Source of the DNA: Desulfobacterales bacterium
Lineage (GTDB): Bacteria > Desulfobacterota > Desulfobacteria > Desulfobacterales > Desulfosarcinaceae
Length of the DNA: 64,000 bases
Assembly: GCA_016218685.1 (NCBI GenBank)
Contig: JACRDD010000010.1
Location: forward strand, 1 to 64,000
Direction: 5' to 3'
The position numbers and the translations under genes were made by a program. Every line of letters begins with the position of its first letter. The stretch's first letter is position 1. The notes below the pieces were generated by a model. It was not told the origin of the DNA and made no database searches. It worked only from the letters and a program-made list of their open reading frames with translations. Below are positions 3,676 to 9,199 of the stretch, piece by piece.

Positions 3676-3969
3676 TCAACACGGCTCGGATAGCGGCGAG
3701 CAGAGCACGAATCCTTCGCCATACCAGGAATCCCGGTAGTCGATGACCGTTTGATGGAATAACGCTGCTTCCCCTCGGTCATAAACAAAAGCGATGCCCT
3801 GCAAATGCACGGTTTCATCTTCTTCCCGTGGTTCATCCAGAACCATTCCCAATCGGGGGCCGACTCAGCCGAAGCCTTGATTGATTAGCCGAATCGATTT
3901 GGCGGAAACATTTCCCAACACCTTGAGAAGTTCACTCTTCGCTGTTTCGGTCATCGTTATTTCGATCAT
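3676..3969 (-). CDS. HesB/IscA-like selenoprotein (in-frame UGA read as selenocysteine)
   Basis: Read from ATG 3969, codon 35 is TGA (3867-3865). Past it the same frame stays open for 62 codons to a TGA at 3678-3676. The joined 97-residue product matches the HesB-like selenoprotein family: ...IRLINQGFG-U-VGPRLGMVLDEP, with the selenocysteine where IscA/HesB proteins carry their first iron-binding Cys, followed by the conserved G-P-R-L-G-x-x-L-D-E-P and E-E-D-E. The C-terminus (FVLCSPLSEPC) has two Cys but no GCG motif. HesB proteins assemble or carry Fe-S clusters; the role of the Sec form is unknown. AAGGCGG precedes the ATG. A standard gene caller would stop at residue 34 and miss the conserved half. 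A hairpin 19 nt after the UGA fits a bacterial SECIS. Confidence 0.85.
3829..3845 (-). promoter_or_regulatory. Candidate bacterial SECIS hairpin
   Basis: In the mRNA, TGGTTC (3845-3840) and GAACCA (3834-3829) form a perfect 6-bp stem around the 5-nt loop TGGAT, which has G residues at its apex. The loop begins 25 nt after the UGA at 3867-3865, within the spacing usual for bacterial SECIS elements inside the coding region. A second, G-C-rich hairpin (CCC/GGG around GATT, 3857-3848) lies closer to the UGA and could stack below it. Fold judged by eye only. Confidence 0.5.
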
Positions 3970-4041
3970 CGTATCCGCCTTCGTATGGTTTAAGTGCAAT
4001 CGGCCTGTCATTCTTGTTGCCCGGATAATCTGAATACGAAA

Positions 4042-4068
4042 TGCAAATTTGCAAGGGGTGAGGTCACC
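4042..4068. promoter_or_regulatory. Two adjacent palindromes in a divergent intergenic region
   Basis: TGCAAATTTGCA (4042-4053) is a perfect 12-bp palindrome. GGTGA-GG-TCACC (4057-4068) follows after 3 bp. They lie in the 232-bp region between the divergently transcribed selenoprotein gene and the aldehyde dehydrogenase gene, a natural place for an operator acting on either. No regulator gene is adjacent. Confidence 0.35.
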
Positions 4069-4201
4069 ATGCCGGCCCAGTGACTGTTGGCTACCCTCGT
4101 CCAAACTTGCATTTTCCATTATCTGGTTAATTATTCCCCATAACACCCGGTCTGCGGCCAAGGTTTTTCCATAGAGGACAGCAAGTAAGCGGAGGTTTTC
4201 C

Positions 4202-5812
4202 ATGCAAGAAGCATTGACTCAGGTTGCACCGCCCGCCTCGATCTTTGAGCGCAAAAACACCACAGTAAGCACCAACCCGGCCACCGGTGCGGTGATCGGC
4301 GTCTTTGCCCTGAACACGCGCGAGGATGTCTTCGCGGCCGTCCAAAAGGCCCGGCTGGCACAGCCAGCCTGGGCCGCGCTGCCGGTCAAGGAGCGCGCGC
4401 GGGCCGTGCGCAAAATGAGCGACTTCATCCAGCAGCATGCCATGCGCATCGCCCAGACCATTTCACAGGACAACGGCAAGACCCTGGCGGACGCCATGGT
4501 GACCGAATGCGAACCGGCGGCCATGGCCGTTGACTATTACTGTAAAAAGGCCGCCGGTTTTCTGAAAGACCGGCGCATCCGGCCGGGCAACGTGTTCACC
4601 CTCAACTATTTGAGCAAGATCGTGCGGCAACCCTACGGCGTGGTCGGCATCATCTCGCCCTGGAACTATCCTTTTGCCATTCCCTTTTCGGAAGTGGTCA
4701 TGGCCCTGTTGGCCGGCAATGCCGTGGTACTCAAAACCGCCTCGGAGACCCAACTGGTGGGCAGCATTCTCAAGGAGTGCATCGAAACGGCGCAACTGCC
4801 GCCCGATCTCTTCGTGCATCTCAATCTGCCCGGCAAGATCGCCGGGGATGCCTTCCTGGAGGCCGGGGTGGACAAGCTCTTCTTTACCGGTTCGGTTTCG
4901 GTGGGAAAGTATTTGATGCAAAAGGCCGGCGAGCGCCTGACACCGGTGGTGCTGGAACTGGGCGGCAACGACCCCATGATCGTGTGCGCGGATGCCGACC
5001 TGCACCGGGCCGCCGGCGGCGCGGTGTGGGCCGGGATGCAAAACGCCGGGCAGTCGTGCGGCGGGGTCGAACGCATCTATGTCCAGCGCCGGGTCTATGC
5101 GCAGTTTCTGGATATTTTGAAGGCCAAGGTGGAAGCGTTGCGGGTGGGCAACGGCCTGTCCATGGATTCGGACATCGGCGCCATGACCACGCGCCGGCAG
5201 TTGGAAACCGTCCGGCAGCATGTGGCCGACGCCGTGCAAAAAGGCGCCGTGATCCATGCCCAATCGCCGGCGCCCGCCGACGGCAGCGGCTGCTTCCACC
5301 CCTGCATGGTGCTGACCGAAGTGAACCACGACATGTTGGTGATGAAAGAGGAGACCTTCGGCCCGCTGCTGGGGGTCATGCCCTATGACACCATCGAAGA
5401 GGCCATCGCCCTGGCCAACGATTCCCAACTGGGGCTTTCGGCCTCGGTCTGGTCCGGCGATCATGCCAAGGCCAAGCGCATCGCCCGCCGGATCAGGGCC
5501 GGCGCGGTTATGGTCAACGACCATCTGGTGGGCCACGGCCTGGCCGAAACCCCCTGGGGCGGCATCAAGGAGAGCGGCATCGGCCGCACCCACGGCGAGA
5601 TGGGCTTTGCCGAGATGACCTGGCCCCAGGTGGTGACCGATCAAGTGTTGCCCCTGGCCCGGCGCAATTTCTGGTGGCAGCCTTTCGAAGCCAAACAGCT
5701 TTACGGCATGCAGGGGGTCATCGATCTGCTCTATGCCAAGCGTCTGACCGCGCGCCTGGGCGGTGCCGTGCGGGCGACCCGGGCTTTCTTAACCACCTTC
5801 CTTAATAGATAA
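4202..5812 (+). CDS. NAD(P)-dependent aldehyde dehydrogenase
   Basis: A 536-residue member of the aldehyde dehydrogenase superfamily, which oxidises aldehydes to acids through a thioester on a catalytic Cys. Visible family marks are the cofactor region I-S-P-W-N-Y-P-F (about 157-164), F-F-T-G-S-V-S-V-G-K, the catalytic Glu in LELGGNDP (about 257-264) and the catalytic Cys in AGQSCGG (about 285-291), plus EETFGPLLG. Compared with typical 470-490 residue members there is a C-terminal extension of about 50 residues (FWWQPFEAKQLYG onward), a form seen in some anaerobe enzymes. The ribosome-binding site GGAGG lies 6 bp before the ATG. An iron-type alcohol dehydrogenase follows after 216 bp. The pair may oxidise an alcohol to its acid; substrate not determinable. 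Confidence 0.85.
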   Translation: MQEALTQVAPPASIFERKNTTVSTNPATGAVIGVFALNTREDVFAAVQKARLAQPAWAALPVKERARAVRKMSDFIQQHAMRIAQTISQDNGKTLADAMVTECEPAAMAVDYYCKKAAGFLKDRRIRPGNVFTLNYLSKIVRQPYGVVGIISPWNYPFAIPFSEVVMALLAGNAVVLKTASETQLVGSILKECIETAQLPPDLFVHLNLPGKIAGDAFLEAGVDKLFFTGSVSVGKYLMQKAGERLTPVVLELGGNDPMIVCADADLHRAAGGAVWAGMQNAGQSCGGVERIYVQRRVYAQFLDILKAKVEALRVGNGLSMDSDIGAMTTRRQLETVRQHVADAVQKGAVIHAQSPAPADGSGCFHPCMVLTEVNHDMLVMKEETFGPLLGVMPYDTIEEAIALANDSQLGLSASVWSGDHAKAKRIARRIRAGAVMVNDHLVGHGLAETPWGGIKESGIGRTHGEMGFAEMTWPQVVTDQVLPLARRNFWWQPFEAKQLYGMQGVIDLLYAKRLTARLGGAVRATRAFLTTFLNR

Positions 5813-7293: not shown

Positions 7294-8022
7294 ATGCAGT
7301 GGATTCGAACTGCCCGACAGGAGATGGCGCGCTTCGATGGCCGCTGGGTCGTGGTCGTCGCTTTTTCCTGCGCGCTGATCGTTACGCATCAATACTACTT
7401 CCATGCGCCCATCGATTTCTTCCTTTCCTTTCTTCAGGGTCTAAACCCCGAGGCGGTCACGCTCTATAAGTTTTTGTTCTCCCATGCGGCGACGTTTCTG
7501 TTGCTTTTTGTCGTGCCGCTGCTGTTTCTAACGCTCTTGAACCGATGGTCGGCCGACGACTTTTCGCCGCTGAAGTATACCTTCACCCTGGGCGAATTTC
7601 GGCTGGGGTGGAAGCTGGTGCTGCTTTTTGTGGCGGTCTGTTTTGCCTTCCACGTGGCGTTTGCCCCTGCCGGCATCTATCCCTTGTGCCGGAGCAGTTT
7701 GATCCGGCAATCTCTTTTTTACTTCCTGCTCTTCGAGTGCTTCCAGTGCTTGTATATGGTGGGGTTCGAGTACTTCTTCCGGGGCTACATTCTGATCGAG
7801 GCGTCGCGGATTTTCGGTCCTAATGCCTTGGTGATTACGCTGCTGCCCTATATCATCATGAAGTTCGGCAAGCCGCCGTTCGAGATCTACACCGCCATCC
7901 TGGTGGGCTTGGTTCTGGGGTACATGACGTTGCGGACCCGAAGCTTCTGGTATGCGGCCGGATCGCATGCGCTACTGGCGGCGGTGGTGGATGTGTGGGA
8001 GTATAGCCGCATCGCCGCTTAA
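7294..8022 (+). CDS. CPBP-family intramembrane protease-like protein
   Basis: 242 residues with about seven hydrophobic segments. The C-terminal half carries the CPBP (Abi/CAAX-protease) pattern. Motif 1 is F-E-Y-F-F-R-G-Y (about 169-176), in which the first Glu of the usual E-E-x-x-x-R is replaced by Phe but the second Glu and Arg are kept. Motif 2 contains MKFGKPPFE. Motif 3 has GSHALLAAVVDV, with the His expected at the active site. These proteins are glutamic intramembrane endopeptidases, and some act in prenyl-protein processing or self-immunity. The missing Glu makes full activity uncertain. GGAAAGGGG precedes the ATG. The cysteine desulfurase gene starts 31 bp downstream, so the two are probably co-transcribed. 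Confidence 0.7.
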   Translation: MQWIRTARQEMARFDGRWVVVVAFSCALIVTHQYYFHAPIDFFLSFLQGLNPEAVTLYKFLFSHAATFLLLFVVPLLFLTLLNRWSADDFSPLKYTFTLGEFRLGWKLVLLFVAVCFAFHVAFAPAGIYPLCRSSLIRQSLFYFLLFECFQCLYMVGFEYFFRGYILIEASRIFGPNALVITLLPYIIMKFGKPPFEIYTAILVGLVLGYMTLRTRSFWYAAGSHALLAAVVDVWEYSRIAA

Positions 8023-8053
8023 TCGTACGCGTACGAGATCAAGGAGGATAGCC

Positions 8054-9199
8054 ATGATTCAACCCATATACCTTGACTACAACGGCACCACCCCCCACGA
8101 TCCAGAAGTTGTGGCCGCCATGCGGCCGTTTCTGGAGACCGAATTCGGCAACCCTTCCAGCTCCCACTTGTACGGCATCAAGCCCAAGCAGGCCGTGGAG
8201 GCGGCCCGGCGCCAGGTGGCCGGGCTCCTCGGTTGCGCGCCCCAGGAGGTGCTCTTTACTTCGGGCGGCACGGAGTCCAACAACCATGCCATCAAGGGCA
8301 TGGCCCGGGCCTTGAAAGCCAAGGGGCGGCACATCGTCACCAGCGCCTTCGAGCATCCGGCCGTGCTGGAGGTGTGCCAGGCCCTGGAGAGCGAAGGCTT
8401 CGAGACCACCCGGGTAGCGGTGGACGGTGAGGGCATGCTGGACCCGGCCGCCGTGGCGCAGGCCATCCGGCCCGATACGATTCTGATCTCGATCATGCAC
8501 GCCAACAACGAGGTGGGCACGATCCAGCCGATCGCCGAAATCGCGGCTTTGGCCAAGGCCCGGGGGATCGCGATGCACACCGACGCGGCCCAATCCTTGG
8601 GCAAGATTCCGGTGGATGTAAACACCCTGGGCGTGGACCTGCTTTCGGTGGCCGGCCACAAGCTTTACGCCCCCAAGGGCATCGGCGCGCTCTATGTGCG
8701 CCAGGGGCTGCGGCCGGAGAAGTTCTGCCACGGCGCCGGCCAGGAAAAGGGCTGGCGGGCGGGCACCGAAAATGTGCTGGAGATCGTGGGGCTGGGCAAG
8801 GCCTGCGAGATCGCCGGCCGGGATCTGGCGGCCAATGCCGCTCATTTTCAGGCCATGCGCGACCGGCTGCACCAGGGCTTGGTCAGCCGGCTGGCCGATG
8901 TGCGCCTCAACGGCCACCCGGAGCGGCGCCTGCCCAATACCGTTAGCCTGGCCTTCAAGGATCTGGAGGCCAACCGCCTGCTCGAAGAGATCGGCCTTGC
9001 GATTGCCGCTTCGGCCGGCGCTGCTTGCCATGCCGATACCGTGACCCTTTCGCATGTGCTCCAGGCCATGGCCGTGCCGGTGGCCTGGGCCAAGGGGACG
9101 CTGCGCTTTTCCACCGGCCGCTACACCACCGCCCCGGAGATCGACCGGGCCGTGGCGGTGGTGGTGCAAGCCGCGGAGCATTTGCGCCAATCCGAATAA
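8054..9199 (+). CDS. Cysteine desulfurase (NifS/IscS family)
   Basis: 381 residues from the ATG at 8054, preceded by AAGGAGG. PLP-dependent enzyme that removes sulfur from L-cysteine for Fe-S cluster, thiouridine or selenium metabolism. Family marks are IYLDYNGTTP at the start, FGNPSSSHLYG, TSGGTESNN (about 71-79), HTDAAQSLGK, and the PLP-binding lysine in SVAGHKLYAPKG (about 199-210). The catalytic-loop Cys lies in SAGAACHAD (about 319-327), a short loop as in group II enzymes rather than the longer SGSACTS loop of IscS. No scaffold protein or rhodanese is adjacent. The nearby HesB-like selenoprotein makes a link to Fe-S assembly or selenium delivery thinkable, but distance (4 kb) and opposite strand give no direct support. 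Confidence 0.88.
   Translation: MIQPIYLDYNGTTPHDPEVVAAMRPFLETEFGNPSSSHLYGIKPKQAVEAARRQVAGLLGCAPQEVLFTSGGTESNNHAIKGMARALKAKGRHIVTSAFEHPAVLEVCQALESEGFETTRVAVDGEGMLDPAAVAQAIRPDTILISIMHANNEVGTIQPIAEIAALAKARGIAMHTDAAQSLGKIPVDVNTLGVDLLSVAGHKLYAPKGIGALYVRQGLRPEKFCHGAGQEKGWRAGTENVLEIVGLGKACEIAGRDLAANAAHFQAMRDRLHQGLVSRLADVRLNGHPERRLPNTVSLAFKDLEANRLLEEIGLAIAASAGAACHADTVTLSHVLQAMAVPVAWAKGTLRFSTGRYTTAPEIDRAVAVVVQAAEHLRQSE

Follow-up and report, generated by a model that had tools for sequence, protein, structure and literature searches.

We found a gene on the minus strand of a 64,000-nucleotide stretch of Desulfobacterales DNA (contig JACRDD010000010.1; hereafter, the window) that almost certainly encodes a selenoprotein of the IscA/HesB fold, belonging to a tail-less branch of the HesB-like selenoproteins as judged from sequence comparison. 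In the overall explanation that we regard as likely, UGA codon 35 is decoded as selenocysteine (Sec), and the tail-less IscA/HesB-fold product has a metal-site role. The UGA would be translated through the ordinary bacterial SelA/SelB/SelD/tRNA-Sec route, a hairpin 19 nt downstream would be the SECIS element, and the predicted product would be a 97-residue IscA/HesB-fold protein of the tail-less branch.

HesB-like selenoproteins are already known, and the less ordinary part is the tail-less branch, nearly all of whose members have one Cys among their three final residues. They were recorded in several deltaproteobacteria and other anaerobes (PMC1794560), and a 2026 review places them under TIGR01911 with the motif UxGP (PMC13188914). 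As far as these sources describe them, they have stood in catalogues for some twenty years with no known function (PMC1794560, PMC11097638, PMC13188914). In Methanococcus maripaludis, mutagenesis and 75Se labelling identified a HesB-like selenoprotein; the source calls its function not clear and cites an unpublished observation that the disruption mutant still fixed nitrogen (PMC11097638). This archaeal protein carries the same HesB-like label as the window protein, a likeness of description and not of alignment. The tail-less form is not mentioned in the titles and abstract openings of the HesB-like selenoprotein literature that we found, and full texts may differ; our search for literature on Desulfatitalea and selenocysteine returned none, and one for selenocysteine as a ligand of Fe–S clusters listed a single review. 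In the tail-less branch, a Sec and a C-terminal Cys are what is left of the site (joined by Cys90 in the window type), and this reduction makes it a clean system for testing the role of Sec.

The reading frame and its internal UGA codon

The coding region, assigned from the sequence, a PF01521 match, and the conserved TGA and selection, occupies positions 3676..3969 (minus strand, stop TGA included) and encodes 97 residues with Sec35. It opens with an ATG at 3969, and an AAGGCGG ahead of this ATG (3975..3981, minus strand) is a possible ribosome-binding site by eye. The initial annotation had reported a TGA at codon 35 of this frame, 62 open codons beyond it and the sequence TGGTTC-TGGAT-GAACCA 19 nt after the UGA. 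All three are present in the sequence: the TGA, an inferred Sec codon, lies at 3865..3867 (minus strand, read from 3867 to 3865), the 62 sense codons run to the stop TGA at 3678-3676, and the hairpin is at 3845-3829. A mechanical ORF list holds the upstream half only as the frame 3865-4203, which ends at the internal TGA.

The residues U-V-G-P of the window protein correspond to the UxGP motif of HesB-like selenoproteins with a UGA-encoded Sec. The protein lacks a GCG motif and ends in CSPxSEPC, with Cys90 (codon 3700..3702, minus strand) and the C-terminal residue Cys97 (codon 3679..3681, minus strand) each found in 8 of the 9 full-length window-type sequences; Cys97 aligns with the final Cys of the sister tail-less proteins. 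A second Sec at the terminal TGA (codon 98) was rejected, as TAA or TAG stands there in six of the nine full-length window-type genes.

Conservation of the UGA codon and selection on the gene

We found TGA at codon 35 in all nine full-length window-type sequences, the window included. The median pN/pS over the 36 pairs of these sequences is 0.32 before the TGA and 0.26 after it, and most variation falls on third codon positions on both sides. Among 60 related genomes, 22 have a match at E <= 1e-5 (the window's own genome included), and the full-length homologues in the same-genus genomes G003, G005, G006 and G007 are 65–74% identical with one internal TGA each. A scan of genome contigs gave ten window-type loci, eight full-length and two truncated, some of which, judged by equal length, are the same contigs as in the set of related genomes.

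A wider search of the phylum gave matches at E <= 1e-7 in 126 of 395 genomes. Among the 143 matches listed, 117 have one stop inside, in every case TGA by hand count, and 26 have none; the position of the TGA was checked only in the loci that were fetched and translated. The stop inside the remnant L031, a match of the 60-genome search, is TAA. At the site of codon 35, no residue other than Sec or Cys occurs in the full-length homologues translated. The initial annotation had named another sense codon at this site as evidence against its reading, and none appeared among these homologues.

These data also bear on whether the TGA is a nonsense mutation in a pseudogene, or a sequencing error, so that only 34 residues are made. 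We consider this barely credible. Truncated 3' copies do occur elsewhere (L116, L117 and L031), but the TGA is found in 9/9 full-length sequences from several assemblies, one of them Desulfatitalea alkaliphila M08but (L115), selection persists after it and the hairpin covaries. We rejected this reading because of the conservation of the TGA and the selection after it. The earlier proposal of a functional selenoprotein gains support from the conserved TGA, the purifying selection beyond it, the covarying hairpin and the presence of selA, selB and selD.

A covarying SECIS-like hairpin

The bacterial SECIS rule calls for a hairpin just downstream of the UGA with a G in a small apical loop (PMC1088965). 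The SECIS-like hairpin UGGUUC-UGGAU-GAACCA (3829..3845, minus strand) agrees with this rule, its apical loop being UGGAU or UGGAC in 60 of 60 sequences. We numbered the pairs outward from the loop. In the 65 distinct Sec-type stretches of the fetched loci, pairs 1–5 are standard in all but one of 325 cells (324/325). At pair 3, 22 of these sequences have U-A, 42 have C-G and one (L138) has C.A, while pair 6 is not maintained (unpaired in 17/65). One more Sec-type locus, L123, stands outside this count and has the GCT/GAG form, matching the rest. Nine Cys-type sequences retain between zero and four of the five inner pairs, never all of them.

Because pair 3 sets the second base of a Val/Ala codon opposite the third base of a Glu codon, it can be compared with codon choice. 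Among the first 46 sequences, all 29 with GCT have GAG as the Glu codon of the stem, and all 17 with GTT have GAA. Elsewhere in these genes, Glu codons are mixed (GAG in 87 of 229 in the GCT genes, GAA in 90 of 117 in the GTT genes). Kinship inflates these covariation counts: the tree needs five changes of the Val/Ala base and six of the Glu base, and the independent pairs on well-supported branches number only three, too few for a significant sign test. Stability was rejected as evidence, as the hairpin has z = -0.23 and 75 of 200 shuffled sequences match or exceed its folding stability. The putative SECIS is thus supported by conservation and covariation, not by energy. The window has no Rfam match at gathering scores.

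In L135, the Glu of LDE is replaced by Gly and hairpin pair 2 is C-G; its relative L139 likewise has Gly, with a U-G pair 2. By its pattern, the pair-2 change in these two sequences is a compensatory one, paid for by an amino-acid replacement. The Val/Ala and Glu codons changing together offer a neat example of a protein-coding sequence that carries an RNA constraint.

The selenocysteine decoding machinery

The window's own genome assembly consists of 45 contigs and is 64.6% complete. It encodes selB (367 bits), selA (611 bits) and selD (382 bits), all above cut-offs, and its selD has an in-frame TGA in a UxxK context. The initial annotation had asked whether selA, selB, selC and selD are present. 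Three of the four were found, and tRNA-Sec (selC) was not found in this incomplete assembly: all four hits are below the gathering score, and ARAGORN names the tRNAs at these places Ser (two), Leu and Phe. In eight of ten congeners, a tRNA-Sec exceeds the gathering score, and ARAGORN calls tRNA-SeC with anticodon TCA in all eight. Two congeners, G004 and G008, lack such a hit, and their assemblies (86 and 73% complete) rank lowest in completeness among the ten. The sequence adjoining the tRNA-Sec of G006 matches contig C22 of the window's own genome (G000), where ARAGORN calls a tRNA-Leu.

Contig C22 of the congener G007 carries a second tRNA-Sec-like hit (173696-173781, 52 bits) beside a second SelB-like match (173824-174945, 286 bits, positions 3-358 of 581), and a selD (180507-181430) lies about 6 kb from the latter. 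This is possibly a second selenocysteine locus.

Fold and relation to the A-type carriers

With Cys written at codon 35, the protein scores 31.6 bits against PF01521 (gathering score 26.3), and its scores against the A-type equivalog families are far below cut-offs. The best of five AlphaFold2 models, from a nine-row alignment, has a mean pLDDT of 90.9 and a pTM of 0.81; three models are near pLDDT 90 and two are poor (57.6 and 46.5). At E <= 0.001, Foldseek gives nine matches, and every one is an A-type fold entry (HI1723, IscA, AQ_1857, SufA and DsrR). In the HMMER alignments, profile column 35 coincides with the CSG Cys of 2apn, 1nwb and 1s98, in agreement with the earlier claim that the TGA replaces the first cluster-binding Cys of the family.

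A-type carriers have three conserved Cys residues, two of them in a C-terminal CGC/GCG motif, a set that the window protein does not have. It shares its fold with the A-type Fe–S carriers IscA, SufA and ErpA, and Sec35 stands in the column of their first conserved Cys. Unlike them, it has Sec for this Cys, has lost the GCG tail and keeps at most one tail-like Cys plus Cys90. In E. coli IscA, the first tail Cys follows the conserved Phe of the GEGF stretch by 11 residues; in the tail-less proteins, the C-terminal Cys is 9–10 residues past this Phe. These two Cys residues are probably equivalent. The absence of the GCG motif, noted in the initial annotation, holds and extends to the whole branch, whereas the chemistry unlike that of IscA, which had been derived from it, stays conjectural because a C-terminal Cys is still present, close to the site of the first tail Cys in IscA.

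A tail-less branch of HesB-like selenoproteins

We placed the window protein in a tree of 52 rows, 46 Sec-type and 6 Cys-type. The nine window-type rows form one group (support 100/99), and a branch with support 88/99 has the window type together with L081, L082, L083, L088, L090, L092 and L097 on one side (16/52 rows). None of the 16 has the Cys-rich tail of the other rows, and all but L108 (15 of 16) carry a Cys among their final three residues. With L108 left out, the C-terminal Cys of the tail-less proteins occupies one alignment column in 9/9 rows. The comparison with HesB selenoproteins and Cys homologues, proposed earlier as a check, puts the window protein in a tail-less Sec-type branch. 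Judged by this comparison, the missing GCG tail is a mark of a whole branch of HesB-like selenoproteins and is not peculiar to the window protein.

The tailed HesB-like selenoproteins (NF038090 IscA_HesB_Se; TIGR01911 HesB_rel_seleno) have Sec at the same place, the UxGP motif and the same fold family, and their hairpin is the same as that of the window gene, equally placed in frame, eight codons after the UGA. The window protein differs from them in having no Cys-rich tail and in ending with CSPxSEPC. The seven sister tail-less proteins named above come from the same phylum and share the Sec, the hairpin, the missing Cys-rich tail and one Cys among the three final residues; the five that were aligned are 26–38% identical to the window protein, and these sister proteins have no CSPxSEPC ending.

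Against the NCBIfam HesB-Sec models, the window protein reaches 50.2 bits for NF038090 (cut-off 85) and 44.0 bits for TIGR01911 (cut-off 66.35). Ten proteins were scored: seven tail-less ones are below both cut-offs, the three with a tail (L014, L015 and L103) exceed that of NF038090, and not one of the ten reaches that of TIGR01911. By score, the window protein is a divergent relative of the TIGR01911/NF038090 family and not a member of it. With the seven scored tail-less proteins below the cut-offs, mechanical annotation may give fragments or nothing for such proteins.

A further Cys-type HesB relative occurs in L032 (G007) and L120 (G001), with a Gly-Cys-Cys motif and a C-terminus that has no Cys-rich tail.

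Possible role of selenocysteine

Sec35, which stands where IscA has the first of its cluster-binding Cys residues, may work with the single C-terminal Cys97. The two would form a two-ligand-per-monomer site, shared across a dimer, for iron, an Fe–S cluster or another soft metal, and the role would be a dispensable, accessory one. We favour a metal or cluster site because of the fold and the position of Sec, and tentatively propose the Sec35 and Cys97 mechanism as the likeliest use.

The main rival, which we hold to be doubtful, is that the same selenoprotein is a redox protein, in which Sec35 and either Cys97 or Cys90 join in a reversible selenenylsulfide and no cluster is bound. The Cys that 15 of the 16 tail-less rows have near their C-terminus would suit such a pair, and most uncharacterised selenoproteins probably serve redox functions according to the 2026 review (PMC13188914). 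On the other hand, the protein has the fold of a cluster carrier rather than that of a thiol-redox enzyme, and L108 has Sec with neither Cys.

L108 (2537-2827) is a window-type copy with the TGA and the hairpin, in which Trp and Val replace Cys90 and Cys97. Its Sec with neither Cys also weakens the Sec/Cys metal site that we prefer. Either Cys is not strictly needed, or L108 is a decaying or misassembled copy.

A more specific idea is that the tail-less proteins act as a minimal A-type carrier, with an Fe–S cluster bound in the dimer by two selenolate and two thiolate ligands. We think this unlikely. If true, it would be a natural Sec-ligated Fe–S carrier, perhaps for one special anaerobic client.

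Distribution and genetic loci

The window type is found in 5 of 11 same-genus genomes and also in G285 and G676, with a truncated form in G141. Three 3' copies are truncated: L116 starts from codon 39, L117 from codon 67 and L031 from about codon 69. L116 (5001-5177) keeps the hairpin stretch and has lost the TGA half, L117 (5001-5093) has Gly at the place of Cys90, and L031 (446-532) has a TAA inside. They look like remnants of a gene being lost.

We compared the surroundings of the window gene with those of ten further loci, using flanks that never exceeded 5 kb and were in some cases far shorter, and saw no conserved neighbours. The ORF clusters that recur among these loci are the gene itself or overlapping frames, save for one pair of loci sharing an ABC-type ATPase (named by eye) and another sharing an aldehyde dehydrogenase; they give no operon or neighbour clue to function. 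The gene is flanked in the window by genes for a DUF4124-glutaredoxin protein (convergent) and an aldehyde dehydrogenase (divergent). We take the window-type gene to be a stand-alone, dispensable accessory.

Sec might instead sequester or sense a soft metal or metalloid, with no part in Fe–S assembly. The patchy distribution (5/11 same-genus genomes) and the lack of conserved neighbours fit such an accessory trait, and selenoproteins for metal and metalloid resistance are described (PMC13188914). No metal-resistance gene, however, was seen among the eight annotated neighbour ORFs in the window, and we find this use improbable.

A mobile-element origin was rejected, as no relative was confirmed in viral contigs or phages. 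The ten plasmid matches are proteins of Priestia, Cytobacillus and Niallia, 31–33% identical, and none is of the window type.

Two other features of the window are recorded here. An open frame on the plus strand (479-1216) encodes a Cys-rich protein of 245 residues with no Pfam match at E <= 1e-5. A class-V aminotransferase (PF00266, 264 bits), NifS/IscS-like by eye, is encoded at 7952-9199 on the plus strand, 4 kb from the selenoprotein gene, on the opposite strand and so not in one operon with it.
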